54,933 nucleotides of DNA from Desulfuromusa sp. (GTDB lineage: Bacteria; Desulfobacterota; Desulfuromonadia; Desulfuromonadales; Geopsychrobacteraceae), in the NCBI GenBank assembly GCA_027858895.1, contig JAQIBX010000153.1:1-54933 (forward strand), in the 5' to 3' direction. A program made the position numbers and the translations under genes. Numbering within the stretch: position 1 is the stretch's first letter; each line of letters starts with the position of its first letter. The notes beneath the pieces were generated by a model. The model had not been told where the DNA came from, searched no databases, and saw only the letters and a list, made by a program, of their open reading frames with translations. Below, piece after piece: positions 289-19,883 of this stretch.

Positions 289-1887
289 ATGCTAAACGAC
301 TTGCTTTCAGGGAAAGTTGATTATTTCATTGCAAATGATACCAATCTTAATTTTTCTATCAAAGGACAAGAACTTCTCAAACTCTATTACCCGAAAAAAC
401 CTTTTTATCAGCACCATGTTAGAGCCGGGACATTACAGAAACGAAGCCATTTGCTGGGAGATGTCAATGCAGGAATGCAAGCGATCACCAATTATGAACG
501 TCAGGCGATTGTCAACGAGTGGTCTCCAAGTATGGTCGGATACAGATTTTCATGGGAAATTATTGGTCTGTCGACTGTCGTCCTTTTATCTATCATCATA
601 ACAATCATAATCTGGTTGATGAACATCAAACTTAAAGGACAAGTTACAGAACAAACCTATAGGTTGGAAGCACAAAAGAGGGAACTGGAATCGGACATTC
701 AACGTCGACAGCTGCTTGAAGGGGAACTACAACACGCCAAGATTTTAGCTGATACAGCCAATAAAGCAAAATCACAATTCCTCTCCAATATGACCCATGA
801 GTTGCGGACACCTTTACGAGGGGTTCTCGGCATGAATGAACTACTTGCTCGGACACCATTAAGTGAGCAGCAACAACAGTTGGTAGAAACGGTGCAAAAT
901 TCTGGGCAGGATCTGTTGTTGATAATCAACAATATCCTTGATTTCTCAAAAATCGAATCTGGGAATCTACCTCTTGATAATGTCGAGTTTGATTTACCGA
1001 CAGTAATTGAGGGTGAGCTTCAATTACTGTCTGAAAGTACTCAGGATAAAAGCCTAAATCTTTCCGGACGGATTGACTATAAGGCGTTATGGAGAGTTAA
1101 GGCAGACCCTGTTAAGCTGCGACAAATACTAGTTAATCTGATTAGCAACGCAATTAAGTTTACTCTGCAGGGTGATATTCTGGTTGAGGTAACCCTTGAA
1201 GAAATTTCTAATAATCATGGGTATTTTCAATTTACAATTCAGGATACTGGAATCGGTATGACTCAGGAGGATTTGAAACGGGTTTTTTCAGCCTTTACTC
1301 AAGTTGACAGCTCTCAAGAGCGTAAATTTTCTGGTTCTGGCCTTGGGTTAGCTATTGTTCGACAATTGGTTGATTTGATGGGGGGAGAGATCAGCATAGA
1401 AAGTCAGCTGCATCAAGGAAGTTGTTTTAAGGTTACACTTCCGTTTGAGTTGGTTGAACAACAGCAACCAGAGGTCCCTGACTTCTTGAAAAATAGCCGG
1501 GTTCTCCTGCAAGTTGAGAACCCCTTTACCAGAGAAACGTTGCAACAAATGCTTTCTGTCTTTGGGTGTCAGGTATCTCCCGTAGCAACCGGAGAAGAAG
1601 CTTGGAATAGACTTGTTACTGTCAATGACAAGAGTAATTCTTTTGATATTGCGCTTATCGAAGCAAAATCAAGTGTGAGTGATGGTGATTTGTTATCTGA
1701 AAAAATCAGTCGGGAGGCAACTCTAAGTAGATTATCAGTTATCGGAATTTGCCATCGCTCGTTTTTGTTGGTATCTAATGTCCCAATCCAGGTTATCACT
1801 TTGGAGCGCCCGGTTGCCTGGTGTCAACTTATCACAGCACTAAAAAAATGTAGTCCATGCGGGGAGAAGGACATAGGTATAGTCTGA
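289..1887 (+). CDS. Hybrid-type sensor histidine kinase, N-terminally truncated
   Basis: The 532-residue product begins inside a periplasmic solute-binding sensor domain (SBP_bac_3 type). A hydrophobic segment at about residues 90-112 follows, then a coiled-coil linker and a HisKA domain with the H-box NMTHELRTPL (His170). The HATPase domain has an N-box (LISNAIKF), DTGIGM and GSGLGLAI. The C-terminus resembles a receiver fold, but the usual phospho-Asp strand reads IALIEAKSS, so it probably cannot accept phosphate. The same frame stays open upstream to 103 and still encodes sensor-like sequence (RIGIIAKDKAF at about 205), yet no ATG precedes 289. The first lobe of the sensor is missing, so this is probably a decayed or truncated gene. 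The catalytic core itself is intact. No partner response regulator is adjacent. Confidence 0.75.
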   Translation: MLNDLLSGKVDYFIANDTNLNFSIKGQELLKLYYPKKPFYQHHVRAGTLQKRSHLLGDVNAGMQAITNYERQAIVNEWSPSMVGYRFSWEIIGLSTVVLLSIIITIIIWLMNIKLKGQVTEQTYRLEAQKRELESDIQRRQLLEGELQHAKILADTANKAKSQFLSNMTHELRTPLRGVLGMNELLARTPLSEQQQQLVETVQNSGQDLLLIINNILDFSKIESGNLPLDNVEFDLPTVIEGELQLLSESTQDKSLNLSGRIDYKALWRVKADPVKLRQILVNLISNAIKFTLQGDILVEVTLEEISNNHGYFQFTIQDTGIGMTQEDLKRVFSAFTQVDSSQERKFSGSGLGLAIVRQLVDLMGGEISIESQLHQGSCFKVTLPFELVEQQQPEVPDFLKNSRVLLQVENPFTRETLQQMLSVFGCQVSPVATGEEAWNRLVTVNDKSNSFDIALIEAKSSVSDGDLLSEKISREATLSRLSVIGICHRSFLLVSNVPIQVITLERPVAWCQLITALKKCSPCGEKDIGIV

Positions 1888-2222: not shown

Positions 2223-4034
2223 ATGAAGAAAAATCATTTGCCAACTTTATTTCCTTTATACACTCGCAAGTTGCGGAGACTGACCCATCAGTTTCTCAGT
2301 CATTTTAAAATCAGTGAAAATACTTTTCTCATAATCCTTGCGGTGATTGTCGGTTTGCTCGGTGGTTTGGGAAACTACCTGTTTCGTAAGACGATTGAAC
2401 TGATCCATTGGGCGGTTGTTGAGCAGAGTTTTGAACTGTTTGATATCTCTCTTGAACATTGGTCGATGCAACGAATTCTGGTGATGTTTCTCCCTGCCAT
2501 CGGTGGGTTGTTAGTTATTCCACTGTGGATGCTGTTTGCCAAGGATTTGAAAGGTGGGTTCTCCGGGTTTCTGGTCAAGGTCAACCTGAAGGGTGCTAAA
2601 TTGCCATTTCGGCCTCTTTTCACCAAGGGTCTGGCGTCTGCCATCACTCTTGGCACGGGCGGTAGCGCTGGTCAGGAAGGGCCGATTGCTGTCATCGGTG
2701 GAACCATTGGCAGCCAATTCGGTAAAATGTTCAAGATGAGTGGCGATCGGATCAAGGTGCTGGTAGCTTGTGGTGCGGCTGCAGGTGTTGCTGCAACTTT
2801 TAATGCTCCGCTTGCCGGAGTGTTCTTTGCTACGGAAATTGTTCTTCTCTCCTCTTTCGAGGTGGCCAGCTTTACTTCAATTGTTATTGCCAGCGGGATG
2901 GCGACGGTTGTTTCCCGTGCGCTCCTCGGTAATGTCTCAGAAGTTGTGACCCCACCATATTTTCTGGGTAGTTTCTGGGAAATTGGGTTGTATGTTCTGC
3001 TCGGCTTGCTTATTGGTGCTTTGGCGGCTGGATTCATCTACCTTCACTTTAAAATCAAAGATCGGATTGATGCGATCAAGCTGCCGCGTTTGAGCAAGCC
3101 GATTCTTGGCGGGTTGGCGGTTGGGTTGATTGGAATTGGGTTGCCGCAGGTTTTTGGCAACGGCTATGAATTTATCGGCACGGTTCTGCTCGGTCAGCAC
3201 CCCTGGTATTTATTGGCGCTATTGGTCATTGCTAAAATGGTGGCAACCTCAATTACTCTCGGTTCAGGGATGCCGGGAGGTTTATTTGCCCCCTGTCTTT
3301 TTTTGGGAGCTGTCGCAGGTGGCGCATATGGGCAGGTTCTAGAGTTGATTTTCCCTGATGCCGGGCTTTCCGCCGGAGCTTATGCACTGGTCGGGATGGG
3401 GGCTTTTCTGGCTGCGGCGACCCATGCTCCGATGACTGCCATCTTCCTTTTGTTCGAGATTACCGACAGTTATCAGGTCATTGTTCCGATCATGTTGGCC
3501 TGTGTTATCGGGACGTCTGTCGCTCGACATTTGAAAAAAGACAGTTTGGAAACGGTGGAGTTGACCCGCCTTGGTATCGATCTGGAAGCGGGAAAAGAGC
3601 GCAATATTATGAAGGGACTTGCTGTCGGTGATGTGATGTCTCACCGGGTTGAAACTGTCCCTGAGAATATGACATTGGGAAACTTTGCCAAGTTTATTGA
3701 GCAGACTCATCATACTAATTTCCCATTGGTTGACGAACTTGGGGAACTAACCGGAATTATATCGGTTCAGGATTTTATGGGGGTGGTGTTTGAAAAGGAA
3801 CTGATGGATCTGATTGTGGTCAAGGAGCTTGCTACCACAGATGTTATCACAGCGCATGCAGAGGAAGATCTGGATACTGCGATGCGCAAGATAGGTTATC
3901 GCAATATAGAACAACTTCCGGTCGTTGATCGCGAAACCCATCGTCAACTCTATGGGATTATTTCTCGGCGCGATATGATTTCCGCCTATAATCGCGCTCT
4001 GATGAGTCGAACATTGGGGGAACAGGATGGCTGA
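2223..4034 (+). CDS. CLC-family chloride channel/transporter with C-terminal CBS pair
   Basis: This 603-residue polytopic membrane protein moves chloride or another anion across the inner membrane. It carries the CLC signatures GQEGP (gating-type Glu152) and GSGMPGGLFAP in the second half. Where the E. coli exchanger has its internal proton glutamate (Glu203), this protein appears to read ATEIV, so channel-like or altered coupling is possible; that alignment was made by eye. Residues from about 467 to 595 form two CBS domains (MSHRVETVPENMTL onward, then TTDVITAHAEEDL), which in relatives bind adenine nucleotides and modulate gating. The start has no strong ribosome-binding site, but residue 1 precedes a typical charged cytoplasmic N-terminus. 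The gene overlaps uvrD by 8 bp, so the two are probably co-transcribed. Confidence 0.92.
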   Translation: MKKNHLPTLFPLYTRKLRRLTHQFLSHFKISENTFLIILAVIVGLLGGLGNYLFRKTIELIHWAVVEQSFELFDISLEHWSMQRILVMFLPAIGGLLVIPLWMLFAKDLKGGFSGFLVKVNLKGAKLPFRPLFTKGLASAITLGTGGSAGQEGPIAVIGGTIGSQFGKMFKMSGDRIKVLVACGAAAGVAATFNAPLAGVFFATEIVLLSSFEVASFTSIVIASGMATVVSRALLGNVSEVVTPPYFLGSFWEIGLYVLLGLLIGALAAGFIYLHFKIKDRIDAIKLPRLSKPILGGLAVGLIGIGLPQVFGNGYEFIGTVLLGQHPWYLLALLVIAKMVATSITLGSGMPGGLFAPCLFLGAVAGGAYGQVLELIFPDAGLSAGAYALVGMGAFLAAATHAPMTAIFLLFEITDSYQVIVPIMLACVIGTSVARHLKKDSLETVELTRLGIDLEAGKERNIMKGLAVGDVMSHRVETVPENMTLGNFAKFIEQTHHTNFPLVDELGELTGIISVQDFMGVVFEKELMDLIVVKELATTDVITAHAEEDLDTAMRKIGYRNIEQLPVVDRETHRQLYGIISRRDMISAYNRALMSRTLGEQDG

Positions 4035-6273
4035 TCTTCTGGATGCGTTAAATGAGCCGCAACGGCAGGCGGTTCTGCACGAGGATGGGCCATTACTTTT
4101 GTTGGCTGGTGCTGGTTCAGGAAAGACCCGTGCTCTGACTCATCGGGTTGCCTATCTGATTTGTGAACGCGGCGTTCCCGCATGGAAAATTATGGCGGTC
4201 ACCTTTACCAATAAGGCGGCGACGGAAATGCGTGAGCGCCTTGAAGCTCTGCTGGGGCAGGGTGAGCTCCCCTGGATATCAACTTTTCACTCCAGCTGTG
4301 CCCGCATTTTGCGACAGGAAATCCACCATCTTGGGTACGGTAAAGATTTTTCTATCTATGATGATCAGGATCAATTGCGCCTGCTGCGCGATCTTCTCAA
4401 GGCGCAGAAAGTTTCTGAGAAAATATTAAAACCACGTGCGGCCGCATCCTTCATTGATCGGGCAAAAAATCGTGGGTTGATGCCTGACTCGCTTGATGAG
4501 GTTCGCTCGGATGAGCAACTGCTGGCAGAATTATACGCTCAATATCAAAAGAAGTTGAAAGCTGCCAATGCCGTTGATTTTGGTGATCTACTGTTGTTGA
4601 CAGTACGTTTGTTTGAAGACTATCCGGAGGTTCGCCAGCGCTGGCAAGAGCGTTTTTCTCATCTGCTGATTGATGAATTTCAGGATACCAACCGGGTTCA
4701 GTATCGGTTGATACAATTGCTGTTAGGGGATAAAATAAACCTTTGTGTGGTTGGCGACGATGATCAATCGATCTACCGTTGGCGGGGGGCTGAAGTTGAT
4801 AATATTCTTGGTTTTGACCACGACTTTTCCGATGTGAAGATCATCCGTCTGGAGCAGAATTATCGTTCATCTCAGACGATTCTGCAGGCGGCAGGGGGGG
4901 TTGTCGGTCATAACAATGATCGTCGAGAAAAAGAGCTCTGGACTGATAATCCAGCAGGGGATGCTATTCATATAGAAGCATCTCCCGATGATCTGGATGA
5001 GGCGCGATTTGTTGCTGGAGAGGTTGGGCGACTGCAAACTCAGGGCCTTGGTTTGCGCGATATTGCCGTCTTCTACCGAACCAATGCTCAATCGCGAGCC
5101 ATTGAAGAAGCTCTGCGTGGCAGTCGAATTCCTTATGTGATGTTCGGCGGAGTGAAGTTTTATGCTCGGCAGGAGGTTAAAGATGCTCTTTCCTACCTGC
5201 GCGTACTGGTGAATCCGAGCGATTCTCTGGCGGCTCGACGCATTATCAATGTTCCGGCGCGGGGGATTGGTCACACAACTGTTGAGCGGATTGCCGCATT
5301 TGAAGCGGAGGGTGTCGGTTTCCTTGCTGCCTGCCGTTTGGCATTGCAACATAATGCGTTAAAAGGTGCTGCAGTCAGGAGAGTGACCGATTTTCTGATT
5401 TTGATCGATGCTTTCACCGTTCGGCTGGAGCGGGTTCCTTATCCGCAATTGATGGCCGAATTGATTGATGAAAGTGGCTATGGTCCGGCGCTCAAAGAGG
5501 AGGCGGAACAAGCTTTAACTGGCGATGGTCGCCAGGAGGCAAAAGGGCGGCTGGAGAATCTTGAGCAACTTTTGGTTGGGATGGAAGAGCATGCCACTGT
5601 TGATGGATCGGTATACGATTACTTGGAACAGATTGCCTTAATCACCGATCTTGATAAATATGATGCGACCCAGCAACGAGTGACCTTGATGACGCTGCAC
5701 TCTGCCAAGGGGTTAGAATTTCCAGTCGTCTTTATGACCGGAATGGAAGAAGGGTTATTTCCCCATTCCCGTTCAGGTGATCTGGGTGAGGATCTTGCCG
5801 AGGAACGGCGACTCTGCTATGTCGGGATGACTCGGGCGATGCAGAAGCTGTATCTCTCACATGCGCGGCGCCGGCGGGTTTATGGAACCTACCAGTTTAA
5901 TCCGCCAAGCCGGTTTTTGGCTGAAATTCCACCAGAGTTGCTGGCTGATTTTGAATTGGCCGTGACAGATAATGAAAGTCCTGCGACTGTTCATAACCTG
6001 GCGTCTTTAGCGGATTTGGTTGCTGAAAAAGAAATAAATCTTCCGCCAGAAAATAAGGTTTCTGCCCCGAGTTACCAGTCCCCAAGTCGAGAAAGTGCGC
6101 CAGATGATGCTGGTAGTTTGCGCTTGGGAGCACGGGTGCGGCACGTCAAGTTTGGCATTGGAAGCGTGCGAAGCCTGGAGGGCAGTGGCGATAAGCAGAA
6201 GGTGACAGTTTATTTCAATTCGGTAGGCACAAAAAAATTATTGTTGAAGTTTGCTGGTCTGATGCCGGTCTAA
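4027..6273 (+). CDS. uvrD: UvrD/PcrA-type superfamily 1 DNA helicase
   Basis: This 748-residue 3'-5' DNA helicase is expected to act in nucleotide excision and mismatch repair and in clearing RecA or stalled polymerase. All SF1A motifs are visible in order: Walker A AGAGSGKT, TFTNKAATEMRERL, the Walker B region DEFQDTNRVQ, GDDDQSIYRWRGA, LEQNYRSS, TLHSAKGLEFPVVF and CYVGMTRAM. The last about 45 residues (RVRHVKFGIGSVRS) match the PcrA/UvrD C-terminal Tudor-like tail that contacts RNA polymerase. Length is normal for the family. The ATG lies inside the 3' end of the CLC gene (8-bp overlap), and the next gene starts 4 bp after the stop, so the three form one transcriptional unit. Whether uvrD or pcrA is the better name cannot be settled from sequence alone. 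Confidence 0.95.
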   Translation: MADLLDALNEPQRQAVLHEDGPLLLLAGAGSGKTRALTHRVAYLICERGVPAWKIMAVTFTNKAATEMRERLEALLGQGELPWISTFHSSCARILRQEIHHLGYGKDFSIYDDQDQLRLLRDLLKAQKVSEKILKPRAAASFIDRAKNRGLMPDSLDEVRSDEQLLAELYAQYQKKLKAANAVDFGDLLLLTVRLFEDYPEVRQRWQERFSHLLIDEFQDTNRVQYRLIQLLLGDKINLCVVGDDDQSIYRWRGAEVDNILGFDHDFSDVKIIRLEQNYRSSQTILQAAGGVVGHNNDRREKELWTDNPAGDAIHIEASPDDLDEARFVAGEVGRLQTQGLGLRDIAVFYRTNAQSRAIEEALRGSRIPYVMFGGVKFYARQEVKDALSYLRVLVNPSDSLAARRIINVPARGIGHTTVERIAAFEAEGVGFLAACRLALQHNALKGAAVRRVTDFLILIDAFTVRLERVPYPQLMAELIDESGYGPALKEEAEQALTGDGRQEAKGRLENLEQLLVGMEEHATVDGSVYDYLEQIALITDLDKYDATQQRVTLMTLHSAKGLEFPVVFMTGMEEGLFPHSRSGDLGEDLAEERRLCYVGMTRAMQKLYLSHARRRRVYGTYQFNPPSRFLAEIPPELLADFELAVTDNESPATVHNLASLADLVAEKEINLPPENKVSAPSYQSPSRESAPDDAGSLRLGARVRHVKFGIGSVRSLEGSGDKQKVTVYFNSVGTKKLLLKFAGLMPV

Positions 6274-6277
6274 AAAT

Positions 6278-9200
6278 ATGCTGAAAACACAGAGACAATT
6301 TACCCTGCTGCTGGTGGATGACAATCCAACCAACCTATTGCTGTTGGTTAAGATCATCGAACTTGATCTGCCAGAGGTACGGGTGTTAACGGCTGCCACT
6401 GCCATGAAAGGGTTAGAACTGGCGGAACAGGAGCAGATTGACGGCGCTTTTATTGATGTGCAGATGCCACAGATGAACGGTCTTGATATGTGTCGTCAGC
6501 TTCGAGCAAAGTCACGTACCGCTGCTATTCCACTGGTTTTAATGACAGCTCATATTGCCTCTCCGACAATGCGTGCCGAAGGACTTGAGGTTGGAGCCCA
6601 CGATTTTATTTCTCAACCGATCAGCAATGTCGAGATGCTGGCACGGATTAAGGTCATGCTGCGACTGTGCGAGAGTGAACAGCGTTCACTTGAAAATAAC
6701 CAGCAACTGCAACAACAAGTGACGGAGCATGCAGATCGCTTGCGCTGGATCAGTGGTTTGTTGATTTCTGGTGATGGTTCACTGGCAGGGTTGGATCAAC
6801 AATTACTTCGCCACTTGAGCAATGAATTACCCGATCCGGCAACGATTGATGACACATTGTTCTTTGAAAAACTGGTGACAGAATTTCCACTTCCCTGGCG
6901 ACGCACCCTGTTGAAACTGTCTTTGCTTGACAGTGTTCCAGTCTCTCTGGCGCATAAGTTGAGTGAGATTACTGACGTCGCTGCAGTTTTTGATTACCTG
7001 AGCCGGCATCAGCTTTCGCTGATAAAAATGCTGGACGGAGAAAACTATTTATTTCTCAGGCCACAGGTCAGGGATATGTTGCGTAAAAAAGCGGAACAAA
7101 ATCTTTCGGCAAAGGATCGCCAGCAGGTCTCCTTGATTGCAGCGGACTGGTATCGGCAACAAAAAGATTTTTCAGCGGCCCTTCGCTGCCTGATTTATGC
7201 GAAAGAGTATGCCGTTGTTTCGCAGTTGCTCAGCCAGCTTGGTTTTGCTTTACTGGATAATAATTATCGATCCCAAATATCTCCTCTGATCAATCAGATT
7301 CCACAACAGATTGCGTTTGACTGTGGTTGGCTGGCATTGTTTCGCGGTTGTAATGATATCTATGAGCAATCTTCCGGAACAGTGAACTGGCTGGATTTGG
7401 CGGGCCATTACTTCCAGGAGACTTCTGATCGGCGGGGAGAATTATTAACCTTAGCCCAACAGGTTTCCCAGTCGATTTTTATTGATGGATTTTTTGAACC
7501 ATGGGGTGATCGATTGGTGCATTTCAGAGCGCTGGTTGTTGAGCAGTCTCCTTTGTTAGAACCAATTGAACGATTGAAAGTTGCTTTTTCGCTTGGTTTA
7601 GTTGAACTGTTTTTTACTGAAAATTTGACTGCTGTCGATTTGATTCTGAAAGATTCTTTGGCCGAAGCGCAGCAGCTGAATTTAGTAGAGCAACAGTTTG
7701 AACTGAATCTTCTCAGGGTTTTGTACTCTTTACGCCAAGGGCGTTATCTGGTCCTTCGGACGGTTCTGGAACAGTGCTTGAGATTGGCAGTTGACCGGCC
7801 TGATTTGCCACACCGTTTCTGGTTGGAAGCTGTCGCCTGTATTTTTCTCCGTGATTCTGGCAATTTGTCCGGCTTGGGGAAACAGCAGCAAATTCTGGCA
7901 GGATACAGTCCTTATGGGATTCAACAGAACACGGTGGTTGCTACTCTGATCGGTTATTATCAAGCCACTTTGTTGTTGGCGAGCGGGAAAATACAGTCTG
8001 CAGGCGAAGTCCTGGATGTGGCGTTACTTGAAGGGAAAACGGTCAATAGTATCTATTTACGCAGTCGTTTGCTGCAATTGCGTGGCTGGATACGGGCTTT
8101 GTCTGGGGAAAAAATTGGCGCGCTGGCGGATCTTGAAGCGGGGTTGGAGTTGCATAGCCAAAGTGCCGTGAGCTTATATGGTTTGGAAAACCTCCTTTTT
8201 GCTGGCTGTACTTGCTACTCTCTGGGGGATTTTGCAGGCGCATCGACATATTTTTCTCAAGGTTTGGCTGGATCGAAAGCTCACCATGAGGAACGCTTTC
8301 GTGGTGGTTTTCATGCTTGGCTCGCGGTGGCACAACACCAATTGGGAAAACGAGAAGAAGCCGCTAAAAATACAACAGAATTTTTAGATCAGCTGCAAAG
8401 ACATCGGCTGAATTTTTTCTGGGGGTTTATCCCTGAAATTCTCGGAGATCTTGTACCGCTTCTTGGCCTGCACGATCAACGCCGATTGTTACAACCACTA
8501 CTGGAGGAGCACCTATTATCGGCTCTTGATGGGAACAATAATCAAATTCCGTTGCTCAGAGTCAGCTGTTTGGGAAAGTTTCAGTTGGCATTGGAGTGGA
8601 AAACATTTGATCTGAGTCAGGTCGGGCAGGCCTCCAGACAGATTTTTGCCCTTTTGGTTGTTGCTCCAAATTGTAGTTTAAGTCTCGAATTGATGATGGG
8701 GATATTGTGGCCGGACAGTTCTCCGCGTAAGGCTAGAAACAGTTTTGATACCGCCCATTCTCGCTTGCGTAAAGCTTTGGAAGAATGTTTTGGCAAGCAG
8801 ATTCGCAGCGATTATCTGGTTTTAGAAAAAGGGATGCTGTCATTACGCCATGTGCAGATTGATAGTGTTGTGTTTGCCGAAACTATGGGGAAAGTTCGCT
8901 ACCATATGCAGCGAGAAAACTTCTGGCAAGCAGAACATGCGTTGTGGAAGATGGATCAACTTTGGGGAGGAGAGTTCTTGTCTGGATACGATTTGGATGG
9001 TGAACTGCCTCTTCAGCGCGAACAGTTGACTCTATCGCGTCTGGAACAACTGGGTCTGCTTGCTCGGCTGTTACAACGGCGGCAACAGCCAAAAGAAGCG
9101 GCTGGACTGTTACAGTGCGGGTTATTGCTCGATCCAACTCAGGACGCTATGATCCGACAATTATTATCCCTGTATCGACAGCAGCAGAATTATGTTGCGC

Positions 9201-9295
9201 TGGGTTTATTGTTGGAAAATTATCGTACCGCTTTACGGAATGAAGAATACGAGCCTGAAGAGATTGAAGAACTTATTGAAGCATTAGGCACATAA
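6278..9295 (+). CDS. Receiver + MalT-like WH/TPR + SARP (BTAD) transcriptional regulator
   Basis: This is a 1005-residue cytoplasmic regulator. Residues about 8-125 form a response-regulator receiver with the acidic pair VDDN and phospho-Asp60 (FIDVQMP). The normally invariant Lys-Pro near the end of the domain reads SQP, a Gln replacing the Lys. Residues about 150-290 resemble the winged-helix and arm segment that follows the NTPase in MalT/LAL regulators, but no Walker A NTPase is present. A long helical TPR-like region follows to about 740. From about 755, LRVSCLGKFQLAL begins a SARP/OmpR winged helix with DNA-binding features (FALLVVAPN, LMMGILWPDSS), followed by a bacterial transcriptional activator (BTAD) TPR domain. 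The gene starts 4 bp after uvrD. Targets are unknown. The domain calls come from pattern recognition. Confidence 0.8.
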   Translation: MLKTQRQFTLLLVDDNPTNLLLLVKIIELDLPEVRVLTAATAMKGLELAEQEQIDGAFIDVQMPQMNGLDMCRQLRAKSRTAAIPLVLMTAHIASPTMRAEGLEVGAHDFISQPISNVEMLARIKVMLRLCESEQRSLENNQQLQQQVTEHADRLRWISGLLISGDGSLAGLDQQLLRHLSNELPDPATIDDTLFFEKLVTEFPLPWRRTLLKLSLLDSVPVSLAHKLSEITDVAAVFDYLSRHQLSLIKMLDGENYLFLRPQVRDMLRKKAEQNLSAKDRQQVSLIAADWYRQQKDFSAALRCLIYAKEYAVVSQLLSQLGFALLDNNYRSQISPLINQIPQQIAFDCGWLALFRGCNDIYEQSSGTVNWLDLAGHYFQETSDRRGELLTLAQQVSQSIFIDGFFEPWGDRLVHFRALVVEQSPLLEPIERLKVAFSLGLVELFFTENLTAVDLILKDSLAEAQQLNLVEQQFELNLLRVLYSLRQGRYLVLRTVLEQCLRLAVDRPDLPHRFWLEAVACIFLRDSGNLSGLGKQQQILAGYSPYGIQQNTVVATLIGYYQATLLLASGKIQSAGEVLDVALLEGKTVNSIYLRSRLLQLRGWIRALSGEKIGALADLEAGLELHSQSAVSLYGLENLLFAGCTCYSLGDFAGASTYFSQGLAGSKAHHEERFRGGFHAWLAVAQHQLGKREEAAKNTTEFLDQLQRHRLNFFWGFIPEILGDLVPLLGLHDQRRLLQPLLEEHLLSALDGNNNQIPLLRVSCLGKFQLALEWKTFDLSQVGQASRQIFALLVVAPNCSLSLELMMGILWPDSSPRKARNSFDTAHSRLRKALEECFGKQIRSDYLVLEKGMLSLRHVQIDSVVFAETMGKVRYHMQRENFWQAEHALWKMDQLWGGEFLSGYDLDGELPLQREQLTLSRLEQLGLLARLLQRRQQPKEAAGLLQCGLLLDPTQDAMIRQLLSLYRQQQNYVALGLLLENYRTALRNEEYEPEEIEELIEALGT

Positions 9296-9368: not shown

Positions 9369-10238
9369 ATGGCAAGTTGTGAAGGTTGTAACGACAGTTC
9401 CTGCTCAATCAAACAGCAAGGAAATCCACAGGATCAACAGTTCCAGATGCGACAAGCTCTGGATAAGCGGATGTGTGGAATTAAAAATAAAATCATTGTT
9501 ATGTCGGGTAAGGGTGGAGTCGGTAAAAGTACCACGGCAGTCAATCTGGCTCTGGCTCTGGCGGAACAGGGAAAAAAGGTTGGCTTGCTCGATATTGATA
9601 TCCATGGACCAAGTATTCCGAAGATGTTGGGATTAGAGGGTGAACGCCCAAATGCTGATGATGAAGGGATTCATCCATTGGAAGTTTCCGGTCTGAAACT
9701 GATGTCGATTGGTTTTCTGCTGGCATCAACCAGCGAAGCAACGATTATGCGTGGACCCATGAAGCATGGTGCTATTCAACAGTTGTTGGCCGATGTCGCC
9801 TGGGGTGAACTCGATTATCTGCTGCTTGACTGCCCTCCGGGAACCGGAGATGAGCCTTTGAGTGCAGTACAGCTAATTGGCTCAGGGTCGGCTGCGGTGG
9901 TTGTCACTACCCCGCAGGACGTTGCTTTGACCGATGTGGAAAAATCACTCAGCTTTTGTCGTGAGTTGAAGTTACCGGTGGTAGGGTTAGTTGAAAATAT
10001 GAGTGGTTTTATCTGCCCGCACTGTAATGAGAGATCGGACATTTTCAAAAGTGGCGGTGCCAAAAAATTGGCAGAAAAAACCGGTGTTCCATTGTTGGTT
10101 CAAATTCCATTTGAACCATTGGTGGTGATCGGTGGCGATGCCGGGAAACCACATATTCTTCAGTACCCCGATTCAGCCGCCAGTCAGTCGTTGCGTCAGG
10201 TTGCAACAGCGGTCGTTGAGTTCAATGTAGACAAATGA
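9369..10238 (+). CDS. Mrp/NBP35-type Fe-S cluster carrier P-loop ATPase
   Basis: This 289-residue cytosolic ATPase of the Mrp/ApbC/NBP35 family holds and delivers Fe-S clusters to apoproteins. The N-terminus MASCEGCNDSSC gives three cysteines (4, 7, 12) like the NBP35-type cluster motif. The deviant Walker A is GKGGVGKST at about residues 46-54, followed by LLDIDIHGPSIPKMLGL. The C-terminal CPHC at about residue 218 is the bridging cluster site of the dimer. The ATG is preceded by GAAGGAGAATCGAGAATC, a good ribosome-binding site with slightly long spacing. It stands 73 bp after the regulator gene and 26 bp before gatC, which suggests it heads the gat operon. Confidence 0.92.
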   Translation: MASCEGCNDSSCSIKQQGNPQDQQFQMRQALDKRMCGIKNKIIVMSGKGGVGKSTTAVNLALALAEQGKKVGLLDIDIHGPSIPKMLGLEGERPNADDEGIHPLEVSGLKLMSIGFLLASTSEATIMRGPMKHGAIQQLLADVAWGELDYLLLDCPPGTGDEPLSAVQLIGSGSAAVVVTTPQDVALTDVEKSLSFCRELKLPVVGLVENMSGFICPHCNERSDIFKSGGAKKLAEKTGVPLLVQIPFEPLVVIGGDAGKPHILQYPDSAASQSLRQVATAVVEFNVDK

Positions 10239-17700: not shown

Positions 17701-17991
17701 GAACAGCATATTCTATCGCAGGATGATGCCAAATTATTGATAAGTGGTTATAAGTTTCTCCGGCGCTTGGAAAATAAACTCCGACTTTTGTATGATCAGT
17801 CAATTAATGAAATTTCTGCCCACAATAAGGGATTTAGAAGGGCTGCCCGCAGCCTTGGTTATGGTGGCTCGGGGTTGCAGCCGGAACAGAAATTTCTCAA
17901 AGAATACCGAACTGTGACCGGGGAAATCCGTGAGCTTCTGGATAAATATCTTAAACCACAAGCGGTTCTTGATGGAGGGGACTTGCTATGA
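14788..17991 (+). CDS. glnE: Bifunctional glutamine synthetase adenylyltransferase/deadenylase
   Basis: This is a 1067-residue GlnE. It adds and removes AMP on a Tyr of glutamine synthetase in response to PII state and glutamine. Both nucleotidyltransferase domains are present: GMGKFGGHELNFSSDIDL at about residue 236 (deadenylylase half) and GMGKLGGLELNYHSDLDI at about 766 (adenylylase half). Each is followed by a helical GlnD/GlnE regulatory bundle (GRGGIREIEFF, GRGGMVDVEF). A TTG at 14761 would extend the frame back into mtnA; the ATG at 14788 has AAAAGG six bases upstream and is preferred. A PII gene (35640) lies elsewhere in the window. The stop overlaps the next ATG by 4 bp, indicating translational coupling. 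Confidence 0.95.
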   Translation: MIPEQQEIKTKLTLLDADGGDGEEALLVWLDSFALLEGQKAKTDLKLISERLQDQNLLTEILAEAFTTADPDCALNVLERLFDVVAIDQLTMILTNSTRRRQLLTVLGGSPFLAGILCRRKMYFERLFIDGEIDHSRSETQMLNDLRESIPDDADFLELQAGLRCYKAAQILRIGSRDLCGFAVLIEVMEELSGLAAACLQRAYELCGLQLEEEYGQPRQEDEAGDTRIATMTILGMGKFGGHELNFSSDIDLIYCYSSTRGETSGGRRGEKISLHRYFVKLAELLTRALHQVTADGFVFRVDTGLRPDGNNGDLAVSINGAEAYYESWGQSWERAALIKARPVAGDIALGDELLQRLKPFIYRRYLDFGMIEDIKLMKQKINTSLSRKEEGERNLKLGRGGIREIEFFIQTQQLVNAGTRPQLQCRNSLQMLQLLQEEELITPADQQSLGEAYQFLRVVEHRIQVVQEQQTHSLPQHQRELDVLARRCGFTSYSEFFSELEQHRQNVSHIFKDLFYSAEEEEQEVRPEVNFIFDPESDPDLVKDLLEEKGFTNPGAAYDRLWVLRGGDPNKRLTRRGRRCLEALAPLLTEELLASPNPDQALNNLEAFLRGIRAHNSFFSLLVENPAIVKLLIALFGSSQLLSRIFIQRPELLDTLVSRSYIVATKDRRQLYADLVAQMALAEDYELQLDGLRRFRNEEFLRIALSDLYGQVKQGEGAKQLSWLADVCLEQAFKMARDELAGRFGAPFSVGTDGQKEETAFAIIGMGKLGGLELNYHSDLDIIFIYEQEGETRPVVGTDSERFRQISNHEYFAKLAQRIITVLTLVTREGSVYKIDTQLRPSGNQGPLVTSLAAFQRYHQDSAQPWERQALTKARVVCGPTVFTDQLQQVVSRLTFERPVPENLQTEIYRLRQRMEMENARERDDLFNIKTGRGGMVDVEFITQYLQLLHADKIKSLRIQNTVNLLECMAEQHILSQDDAKLLISGYKFLRRLENKLRLLYDQSINEISAHNKGFRRAARSLGYGGSGLQPEQKFLKEYRTVTGEIRELLDKYLKPQAVLDGGDLL

Positions 17992-19883
17992 ATAAAAATA
18001 TTTTGATTATTGATGATGACCGCGATTTGCGCGACTTTTTACAGCAGGCACTTTCAGCCGCTGGTTTTCAGGTCGAAACATGCGATCGTGGTGCAATTGG
18101 CTTGCGCAAATTGTTGACGGAAGATTTTCAGCTGGTTTTGATCGATATTAATATGCCGGAAATTTCTGGACCCAATATATGCAGGGCGTTACGCAAACAT
18201 GATAATACCCGAAACCTGCCAGTTGTAATGATTACGGCCACTTTCCACAGCCCTGAACAGATTGCCGAAGCGAAACAAGATTACGGTGCCGACGATTTTT
18301 TACTTAAACCCTTCACGGGAACAGATTTACAGCATTTGCTGGAACGCGTTTTTTCTCCGGACGAAACTGCGGAAGACACCACTCAGCAAATTCAGCATCT
18401 TTCTGATTACACAGTCCCACTGCAACTGCAACAACTTTACCGGGAAAAAGCGACCGGGTTACTGCATCTGCAGCGGGGAGATGCAAAAAAAATCATCTAT
18501 ATCAAAGAAGGTTATCCGGTTTTTACCCGTTCTAATGTTTTAAGTGAGTGCCTTGGACGAATGTTGGTCAAAGAGGGGGTTATTACGCAGGTTGATTGCG
18601 ATCAATCGGTTGAAAAAAGTAAGGAATCGGGACGTTTGCAGGGAACCGCCCTTATTGAAATGGGCTTGTTGACTCCTCAGGAAGTACAAGCAGCGTTGGT
18701 TCGTCAGGTGACAAATAAACTGCTCTCAACCTTTGCCTGGCGGAGCGGTACTTACCAATTTGTTCCAGGTAAGGATTTTAAAAAAAATATCACCAGGATT
18801 AAATTGACGCCCGCCGCTTTGATTATGCAGGGGATTGACCAATACTGGATTCCAAAACAGTTGGATGATTTCCTCTACCCTTTCAGCGAAGATTATCTGA
18901 AGCAATCCAGTAATCCTCAATATCGTTTTCAGGATATAGAATTGAGCAAGCGGGGGGAGGCCATATTTAAAACTTGTCTGGGAACAAAGACGTTAGACAG
19001 GATTCTGCAACAGCACCCGCTGGCTCGGCGAGAAGTTCAGAAAGTTTTGGCGGCGCTGATGATTTCTGAAATGCTGGAACGTAGTACCATTCCCGAAAAG
19101 GGCGTGATTGACGATCTCTCTGAAGGGGCTGGAACTGAAATTATTGATGAAAAATTGCGGCATAAAATTCTTGATGGTTATAAGCGTATCATGGATTCTG
19201 ACTATTTTGAAGCGTTGGGGCTTGGGCGACAGTGTGGACCAGGAGAAGCGCGGAAAGCTTACTATCGCCTGGCCAAAGAATATCACCCGGATCGCTTTCT
19301 TGGGAGTGGTTTGTCAAGTGAGATGAGTAGCAAAGTTAAAGAAATGTTCCAGTATATCACTCAGGCATATACGATTCTCAGTGATCCTGATACTTGTTCT
19401 GATTATCTTGATGAATTGGTGGCGGGACCAAGGAAGTCAATTGATATTAATCAGGTCATTGAGGCAGAAACATCCTATCAGGAAGGACGTGCTCTGCTGA
19501 AGGTCAGACGTTTTAGTGCCGCTGCTAAAGCGTTGCAAAGATCGATAGAGTTAAGCCCACAAGAGTCGGAATATATGACCTTTTTTGCTTGGGCACTATT
19601 TAAATCTGCCCCGGAAAAACCTGATGCTCAGAACCAGGCACTGGAGGTTTTGTTGGCATCTCGTGAAATAAATCCAAGTTTTGATTTGACTCATCTCTAC
19701 CTTGGTTATGTTTACCAGTCCCAGGCAAAAGAGCGGCAGGCGGAAAAATCTTTCGAAATGGCAGTTAAGGCTAACCCCAATGGCACAGAAGCGTTACGCG
19801 AATTACGCCTGATGAATTTGCGTCGTGAACAAGCGCCTCAATCAAAGGGAATGTTCAACAAATTCATGAAAAAGAAAGATTGA
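17988..19883 (+). CDS. Receiver + DUF4388-like + J-domain + TPR protein
   Basis: This is a 631-residue cytoplasmic multidomain protein. Residues 3-120 form a complete receiver (IIDDDRD, phospho-Asp in LIDINMP, Thr in MITATF, Lys in LLKPF). Residues about 135-260 look like the DUF4388 (PATAN) region common in delta-proteobacterial signalling proteins. From about 402, YFEALGL leads into a J-domain with its HPD motif (YHPDRFL), normally the site that stimulates Hsp70 ATPase. The C-terminus has three TPR-like repeats (about 490-615). It overlaps glnE by 4 bp (ATGA) with GGAGGGG upstream, so it is probably made with GlnE. The function is unknown; a link from phosphorylation to DnaK or to protein assembly is inference. 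Confidence 0.8.
   Translation: MNKNILIIDDDRDLRDFLQQALSAAGFQVETCDRGAIGLRKLLTEDFQLVLIDINMPEISGPNICRALRKHDNTRNLPVVMITATFHSPEQIAEAKQDYGADDFLLKPFTGTDLQHLLERVFSPDETAEDTTQQIQHLSDYTVPLQLQQLYREKATGLLHLQRGDAKKIIYIKEGYPVFTRSNVLSECLGRMLVKEGVITQVDCDQSVEKSKESGRLQGTALIEMGLLTPQEVQAALVRQVTNKLLSTFAWRSGTYQFVPGKDFKKNITRIKLTPAALIMQGIDQYWIPKQLDDFLYPFSEDYLKQSSNPQYRFQDIELSKRGEAIFKTCLGTKTLDRILQQHPLARREVQKVLAALMISEMLERSTIPEKGVIDDLSEGAGTEIIDEKLRHKILDGYKRIMDSDYFEALGLGRQCGPGEARKAYYRLAKEYHPDRFLGSGLSSEMSSKVKEMFQYITQAYTILSDPDTCSDYLDELVAGPRKSIDINQVIEAETSYQEGRALLKVRRFSAAAKALQRSIELSPQESEYMTFFAWALFKSAPEKPDAQNQALEVLLASREINPSFDLTHLYLGYVYQSQAKERQAEKSFEMAVKANPNGTEALRELRLMNLRREQAPQSKGMFNKFMKKKD

Follow-up and report, generated by a model that had tools for sequence, protein, structure and literature searches.

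We analysed a 54,933-nucleotide stretch of DNA (the window; contig JAQIBX010000153.1 of assembly GCA_027858895.1) from Desulfuromusa sp., which carries the gene of a large DNA-binding regulator headed by a receiver domain. The open reading frame (ORF) at 6278..9295 of the forward strand starts with ATG and encodes 1005 amino acids. A preliminary description, made from the letters alone, had read this protein as a receiver joined to a MalT/LAL-like winged helix and tetratricopeptide repeats (TPR), ending in a SARP/BTAD module. Pfam, profile matches to PDB and colinear relatives confirmed this order. The features are listed in Table 1.

Table 1 Features of the regulator and of neighbouring genes in the window.
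Feature	Positions	Strand	Basis or remark
Entire regulator gene	6278..9295	+	1005 aa; colinear full-length relatives
Receiver domain, residues 9-127	6302..6658	+	Pfam Response_reg; best-conserved segment
Predicted phosphoacceptor Asp60	6455..6457	+	37/37 receiver forms
Gln113 at conserved Lys site	6614..6616	+	Q 33/37, K 4/37
Linker, residues 128-152, probably helical (helix inferred)	6659..6733	+	Joint alignment; identity 0.38 within family f1
Putative STAND lid remnant with RWxxGL motif, residues 153-190	6734..6847	+	Aligned to GWxxG of ATPase forms
MalT-type winged-helix domain, residues 191-275	6848..7102	+	PDB profile match to MalT 254-412
TPR superhelix, residues 276-760	7103..8557	+	Colinear with ATPase form L056; hhalign over body
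OmpR-like winged helix of SARP module, residues 761-860	8558..8857	+	Profile match to AfsR, EmbR
BTAD domain, residues 861-1000	8858..9277	+	Pfam BTAD; L046 and L076 score higher
Histidine kinase gene, upstream of ClC-uvrD-regulator	289-1887	+	HisKA, HATPase (Pfam)
uvrD/pcrA helicase gene, immediately upstream, separated by 4 nt	4027..6273	+	Pfam UvrD
Mrp/ApbC-type P-loop gene, downstream neighbour, outside the switch	9369..10238	+	Pfam NUBPL P-loop NTPase

In the Pfam search of the window protein, Response_reg was detected at residues 11-125 (E 2.6e-21) and BTAD at residues 861-994. The latter was barely above threshold (22.3 bits, with the cut-off at 22.1); two relatives, L046 and L076, scored 37.2 and 42.0 bits. 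TPR matches were weak in the window protein itself. The SARP module is C-terminal (residues 761-1000), and about 630 residues of linker, lid, winged-helix domain (WHD) and TPR separate it from the receiver. The profile search of residues 130-750 that the preliminary description had proposed gave no Pfam match above cut-off, and the match to an NTPase that it had named as contradicting its reading was not found, no NTPase family matching the protein at E<=1. A motif scan found no Walker A motif, as had been described. GerE, the LuxR-type helix-turn-helix, had no match at E<=1, and the SARP module is present instead. The STAND/LAL features of the protein are the lid, the winged helix and a TPR-type region, and the P-loop NTPase is not among them. 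The identical layout was found in a one-contig genome (G062, locus L076) and a six-contig genome (G089, locus L023), indicating that it is not an assembly chimera of the window's genome.

To define the distribution of the layout, we searched 136 genomes of the order with residues 139-1005 as the query and obtained matches in 88; the ORFs of many, not all, matching loci were read individually. Three layouts have all or most of the body in common. The receiver form, of about 1000 amino acids, is colinear with the window protein from end to end. It was assigned in 42 of 44 genomes of the window's own family, f1, with no match in G057 and G072; this count includes several genes cut by contig ends, some of them without a receiver in the available DNA, and one (G070) assigned by identity and ORF length only. 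All five genomes of family f9 also carry the receiver form. The ATPase form (977-1153 amino acids) is homologous to residues ~150-1003 and has a STAND-type ATPase at its N-terminus. Twenty were found in the same order (L044, L047-L051 and L054-L067), and Walker A was present in 19 of them, the exception being L051, whose start is apparently frame-shifted. L122 and L131 are likewise ATPase-form genes whose N-terminal part, as in L051, is seemingly out of frame or cut in the assemblies. At least five genomes (G053, G062, G066, G089 and G094) carry both forms. The third layout, in family f20 (L069-L071), lacks lid and WHD: its TPR-SARP part is fused to an OmpR-like receiver with some of an OmpR-like wing. 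Direct reading of L070 showed that Lys is retained at the receiver Lys site. Outside these layouts, family f3 contains a short REC-SARP protein of 405 amino acids without TPR (L081, genome G008), and many f3 genomes gave SARP-part-only matches in ORFs of similar length.

The receiver-form alignment (A1) contains 37 proteins. L016 and L073, identical to L043 and L042, and the truncated L019, L024, L026, L035 and L041 were left out; L082 and L083 duplicate L040 and L023. In a strict Walker A scan, the receiver forms were all negative in their N-terminal part, and the one match, at residue 891 of L037, is attributable to chance. Because its patterns were exact peptides, a scan of GTDB contigs for close relatives returned L043 alone, L016 being identical DNA.

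We evaluated the homology of the lid-WHD-TPR-SARP body using a profile built from receiver forms only (A6; 21 rows, residues 153-1003). Positions 4-853 of A6 aligned with positions 241-1091 of the ATPase-form profile A2 over 850 columns (hhalign, E 8e-150). Against PDB, A6 matched MalT (8bob, residues 254-412; E 9.2e-8), AfsR (E 4.2e-16) and EmbR (E 1.6e-7), and a mixed profile that includes ATPase forms (A3) matched MalT 217-418 at E 2.3e-19. Among five ATPase forms scanned with Pfam, L044 passed the cut-offs of AAA_16 and AAA_22 and L047 that of AAA_22, while L056 was just above that of TPR_MalT (45.2 against 45). L050 and L051 were below the cut-off for AAA_16, AAA_22 and TPR_MalT.

The joint alignment also located the point at which the two forms diverge. 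In the ATPase forms, the NTPase is followed directly by a conserved GWxxG motif, in a region that we take, from general knowledge of STAND proteins, to be the lid. Its Trp (W157 of the window protein) is kept in 36/37 receiver forms and 20/20 ATPase forms, and G160 in 36 of the 37 receiver forms; the first Gly of the motif is Arg in 35 of them. A His in the FHHLFR motif of the winged helix (column 261) is present in all 20 ATPase forms and in five of the 37 receiver forms (L027, L028, L045, L046 and L052); the window protein is without it. A winged-helix His of this kind touches the nucleotide in STAND proteins. The P-loop is gone and this His has drifted, and the lid motif is kept, suggesting that the nucleotide-binding part was lost and a putative coupling motif stayed. 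Judged from the alignment, the boundary of the exchange is directly ahead of the lid 'GW' motif.

Phylogenetic analysis was used to examine the direction of the change. In a tree of 80 rows rooted with distant ATPase homologs, the 37 receiver forms lay on one side of a branch with a Shimodaira-Hasegawa-like approximate likelihood-ratio test (SH-aLRT) value of 98.8. A mixture-model tree of 36 of the 80 rows, with 14 receiver forms and with L068 omitted as a long branch, placed the receiver forms as one clade within the ATPase forms (support 98/96), and 98% of 200 bootstrap trees agreed. We also searched 395 genomes of the phylum. With the five best candidates scored per genome at E<=1e-30, matches spanning receiver, lid and WHD were found in seven genomes only, all of f1 or f9. 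Three further matches extended past profile position 200 (in G194, G295 and G335); the one in G194 (L091) was read and had no body match. With the body profile (two best candidates per genome, E<=1e-15), 30 loci were returned. Six were f1/f9 receiver forms, and the 24 without a receiver comprised 20 with a strict Walker A, two with a P-loop beginning with Ser, one whose P-loop is encoded in an overlapping frame upstream and one in which no P-loop was found. The matching ORFs of 16 further loci (L178-L193) contained no receiver. Since the receiver forms are nested in the trees and restricted to f1/f9, and the receiver-less body loci mostly have a P-loop, ATPase to receiver is, on these comparisons, the better-supported direction of change. 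The idea that a receiver replaces the NTPase of a MalT-like regulator, put forward in the preliminary description, is thus backed by ATPase-bearing homologs of the same body in the same order and phylum, among which the receiver forms cluster.

A tree of the TPR-SARP part in which the f1/f9 and f20 receiver forms make one clade gave a p-value of 0.523 in the approximately unbiased test and was not rejected. The f20 receiver is probably a second, separate exchange, because it is of a different, OmpR-like kind and the lid and WHD are missing.

The receiver itself is strongly conserved. The acidic pair (D14 and D15), D60 and T90 are invariant in 37/37 receiver forms. The mean pairwise identity of the segment was 0.72 within f1 and 0.55 between f1 and f9, the highest of seven segments.

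We compared the gene neighbourhoods of the receiver forms. uvrD lies directly upstream of the regulator in 34/37 f1 loci, the other three (L019, L024 and L026) being without an upstream flank, and mrp and/or gatC lies downstream in 35/37, the remaining two reaching the contig end. In all 19 f1 loci viewed further upstream, a ClC gene precedes uvrD. In all five f9 loci (L174-L177 and L211), a hybrid histidine kinase, an LVIVD-repeat propeller and the regulator stand in a row, overlapping or at most 54 nt apart; the L175 and L176 regulators are 98% identical. Three of the f9 kinases were scanned with Pfam and had HAMP, HisKA, HATPase and two receivers, with CHASE8 in two of these; the remaining two were identified by similarity. 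No match to the f9 kinase (E<=1e-15, >60 bits) was found in 16 ATPase-form neighbourhoods of 10-16 kb (L194-L208 and L212). The receiver form belongs to a kinase operon in f9 and looks orphan-like in f1.

Eight loci from other families (L214-L221) likewise have the kinase and the propeller, next to an outer-membrane-like gene; no receiver-SARP regulator was found within the 7.6-18 kb examined there. Across the 13 loci (L174-L177, L211 and L214-L221), the set that recurs in this taxonomic order is the hybrid histidine kinase, an LVIVD propeller of ~1005-1082 amino acids, an outer-membrane-receptor-like protein and often a TPR protein; the receptor-like assignment is our reading, as the one such protein scanned had no Pfam family at E<=0.001. 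The receiver-SARP regulator adjoins this set in the five f9 loci only. Elsewhere in the window, the gene at 17988-19883 (+) encodes an unusual combination of a receiver, DUF4388, a DnaJ domain and TPR.

Taken together, we consider it probable that the window protein is a response regulator derived from a STAND (MalT/LAL-type) SARP regulator. The sequence-level support for this is the architecture, the homology of the body, the exchange point, the grouping of the receiver forms, the loss of the P-loop and, in most receiver forms, of the winged-helix His, the retention of Asp/Asp/Asp/Thr and the kinase linkage in f9. To a more specific proposal we give an even chance: that a STAND (NLR-like) ATPase was swapped for a receiver at the NTPase/lid boundary, that the lid-WHD-TPR arm would now be driven by aspartyl phosphorylation and that, as the separate f20 receiver suggests, the body would accept either energy currency. 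In the response-regulator reading, the exchange would have occurred in an ancestor of f1 and f9, with the junction directly ahead of the lid, and the old machine would survive as lid helix, WHD, TPR superhelix and DNA-binding SARP/BTAD module. A histidine kinase, which for f1 would have to be unlinked, would phosphorylate Asp60. The receiver, occupying the former seat of the ATPase, would then move or dimerise the lid-WHD-TPR arm via linker, lid and WHD. The SARP modules, thereby freed or paired, would engage DNA and activate RNA polymerase in the manner of the AfsR SARP.

Several observations weigh against this reading. The TPR-SARP-only tree requires two changes for the receiver forms. In the receiver-only tree (126 columns, poorly resolved), L091-L093, which are receivers of other proteins, separate the f9 receivers from the f1 receivers. 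The two families may have captured related receivers separately, and a single capture is not certain. Uneven-composition warnings were given for the 80-row, TPR-SARP-only and mixture-model trees, and long-branch warnings for the first two. AlphaFold, supplied with an alignment of the window protein and L043 only, gave a mean predicted local distance difference test (pLDDT) score of 39.6 for the full length and 45.0 for residues 1-340; these models were too poor and entered in no argument. As for a partner, the histidine kinase of the window had no match at E<=1e-10 in the 1.1-4.6 kb upstream of ClC in any of the 19 f1 loci with the ClC-uvrD-regulator block, and we rejected it on this ground. 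An operon of the f9 type serving the window's regulator was also rejected, as the window's own genome gave no LVIVD match. Finally, the Lys site of the receiver is occupied by Gln in 33/37 receiver forms, Lys being found in the four members of genus g9 (L027-L030), and the window receiver has four of the five residues of the DD, D, T, K set. It is a pseudo-receiver by the definition in PMC12632262, in which a receiver missing any one of the five residues is so called.

The Gln had been noted in the preliminary description, correctly, and had been taken there to suggest a phosphorylation-poor or unconventional switch. A stronger version of that idea is that the domain is a fixed dimerisation or docking surface that does not switch by phosphorylation, the activity of the protein being set by another signal or by its expression level. 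It is consistent with the Gln of 33/37 receiver forms, set against the Lys found in all 36 rows that cover the site among other receivers of the window's genome (30 of 85 places were fetched, one row was short of the site and a few rows repeat from overlapping loci) and with the absence of a conserved adjacent kinase in f1. However, the four other catalytic residues are invariant, Lys is present in the g9 members, no segment is better conserved than the receiver, and a kinase adjoins the gene in f9. PMC12632262 also states that receiver reactions can persist despite changes at DD, T or K. On balance, we regard a fixed surface as unlikely and the earlier suggestion of poor phosphorylation as poorly supported. 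The window receiver is formally atypical, yet looks functional, and the Gln probably leaves phosphorylation possible while altering how long the phosphorylated state lasts or how it is coupled.

The origin of the Gln was considered separately. By the 80-row and receiver-only trees, the g9 members seem to have reverted to Lys within the family. Seven receiver rows of families f41 and f72 (L094, L096, L097, L099, L105, L106 and L109) also have Gln at this site and keep the acidic pair, Asp and Thr; theirs is probably an independent Lys-to-Gln change. These receivers group apart, and Gln was rejected as the mark of a special donor receiver. The nearest receivers in other proteins in the receiver-only tree have Lys or Arg at the site.

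A second alternative makes the TPR superhelix the main input: it would still bind a small-molecule inducer, like that of MalT, the receiver being an added second gate. In its favour, the TPR array is of full length and colinear with that of the ATPase forms; against this, it has the lowest conservation among the seven segments (identity 0.37 within f1 and 0.21 between f1 and f9) and is without a known ligand, and we find the proposal improbable. That the protein has no STAND descent and arose by insertion of an unrelated TPR block into an ordinary REC-SARP response regulator is strongly disfavoured and very improbable: the short L081 protein of the same order would offer a starting point, but the whole stretch from lid through WHD and TPR to SARP is colinear with the ATPase forms, and the receiver forms are nested among these in the trees.

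We compared the response regulator proposed here with known systems. MalT and the LAL-type STAND regulators share the homologous winged helix and TPR and the lid motif with the window protein, but have an NTPase and a LuxR-type helix-turn-helix where it has a receiver and SARP/BTAD. The ATPase-WHD-TPR-SARP regulators of the same order share the whole aligned body and differ in carrying an N-terminal P-loop ATPase in place of the receiver. The f20 proteins also join a receiver to this TPR-SARP body and differ by the features described above. REC-wHTH-BTAD response regulators, presumably the group named SAPR (COG3947), have the receiver input and SARP output in common with the window protein and are without lid, WHD and TPR; L081 is a protein of this type. 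BTAD makes up 0.6% of response-regulator outputs, as given in PMC10663231. Large SARPs such as AfsR resemble the window protein in combining a SARP module (winged helix and BTAD) with STAND-type TPR parts. In PMC10936776, AfsR is described as having an N-terminal SARP and a NOD and as being ATP-responsive, the SARP module activating and ATP binding affecting the full protein; in the window protein, the SARP is C-terminal and the NTPase of the NOD is gone. Since there is no P-loop, ATP cannot act through it as in AfsR. BrpL, a BTAD-TPR regulator, is described as LuxR-family in an excerpt of PMC5987052, which mentions no receiver.

The preliminary description had known of no named family with this layout, and none was found in Pfam, in the best 25 of 94 NCBIfam matches or in the best 60 of 256 PDB sequence matches, nor was the layout found in the searches made of open-licence PMC papers. 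Those 25 NCBIfam matches, all far under the cut-offs, concerned the receiver portions of other proteins. REC-BTAD and STAND-SARP regulators are both known kinds. The window protein would join the two by an exchange at a defined boundary.

It is an open question how STAND proteins (MalT and AfsR, with NLR and Apaf-1 proteins as distant members) pass the state of their NTPase to sensor and output, and this natural removal of the NTPase bears on it. Here, a well-understood switch would replace the NTPase with the rest of the protein kept. The comparison of lid and WHD residues suggests a role with ATP for the lost His and a role in domain coupling for the kept GW-type motif. If the reading is true, the receiver forms would show which STAND parts are required for signal transfer without the NTPase, and they would be a natural design for a SARP activator responsive to a histidine kinase.

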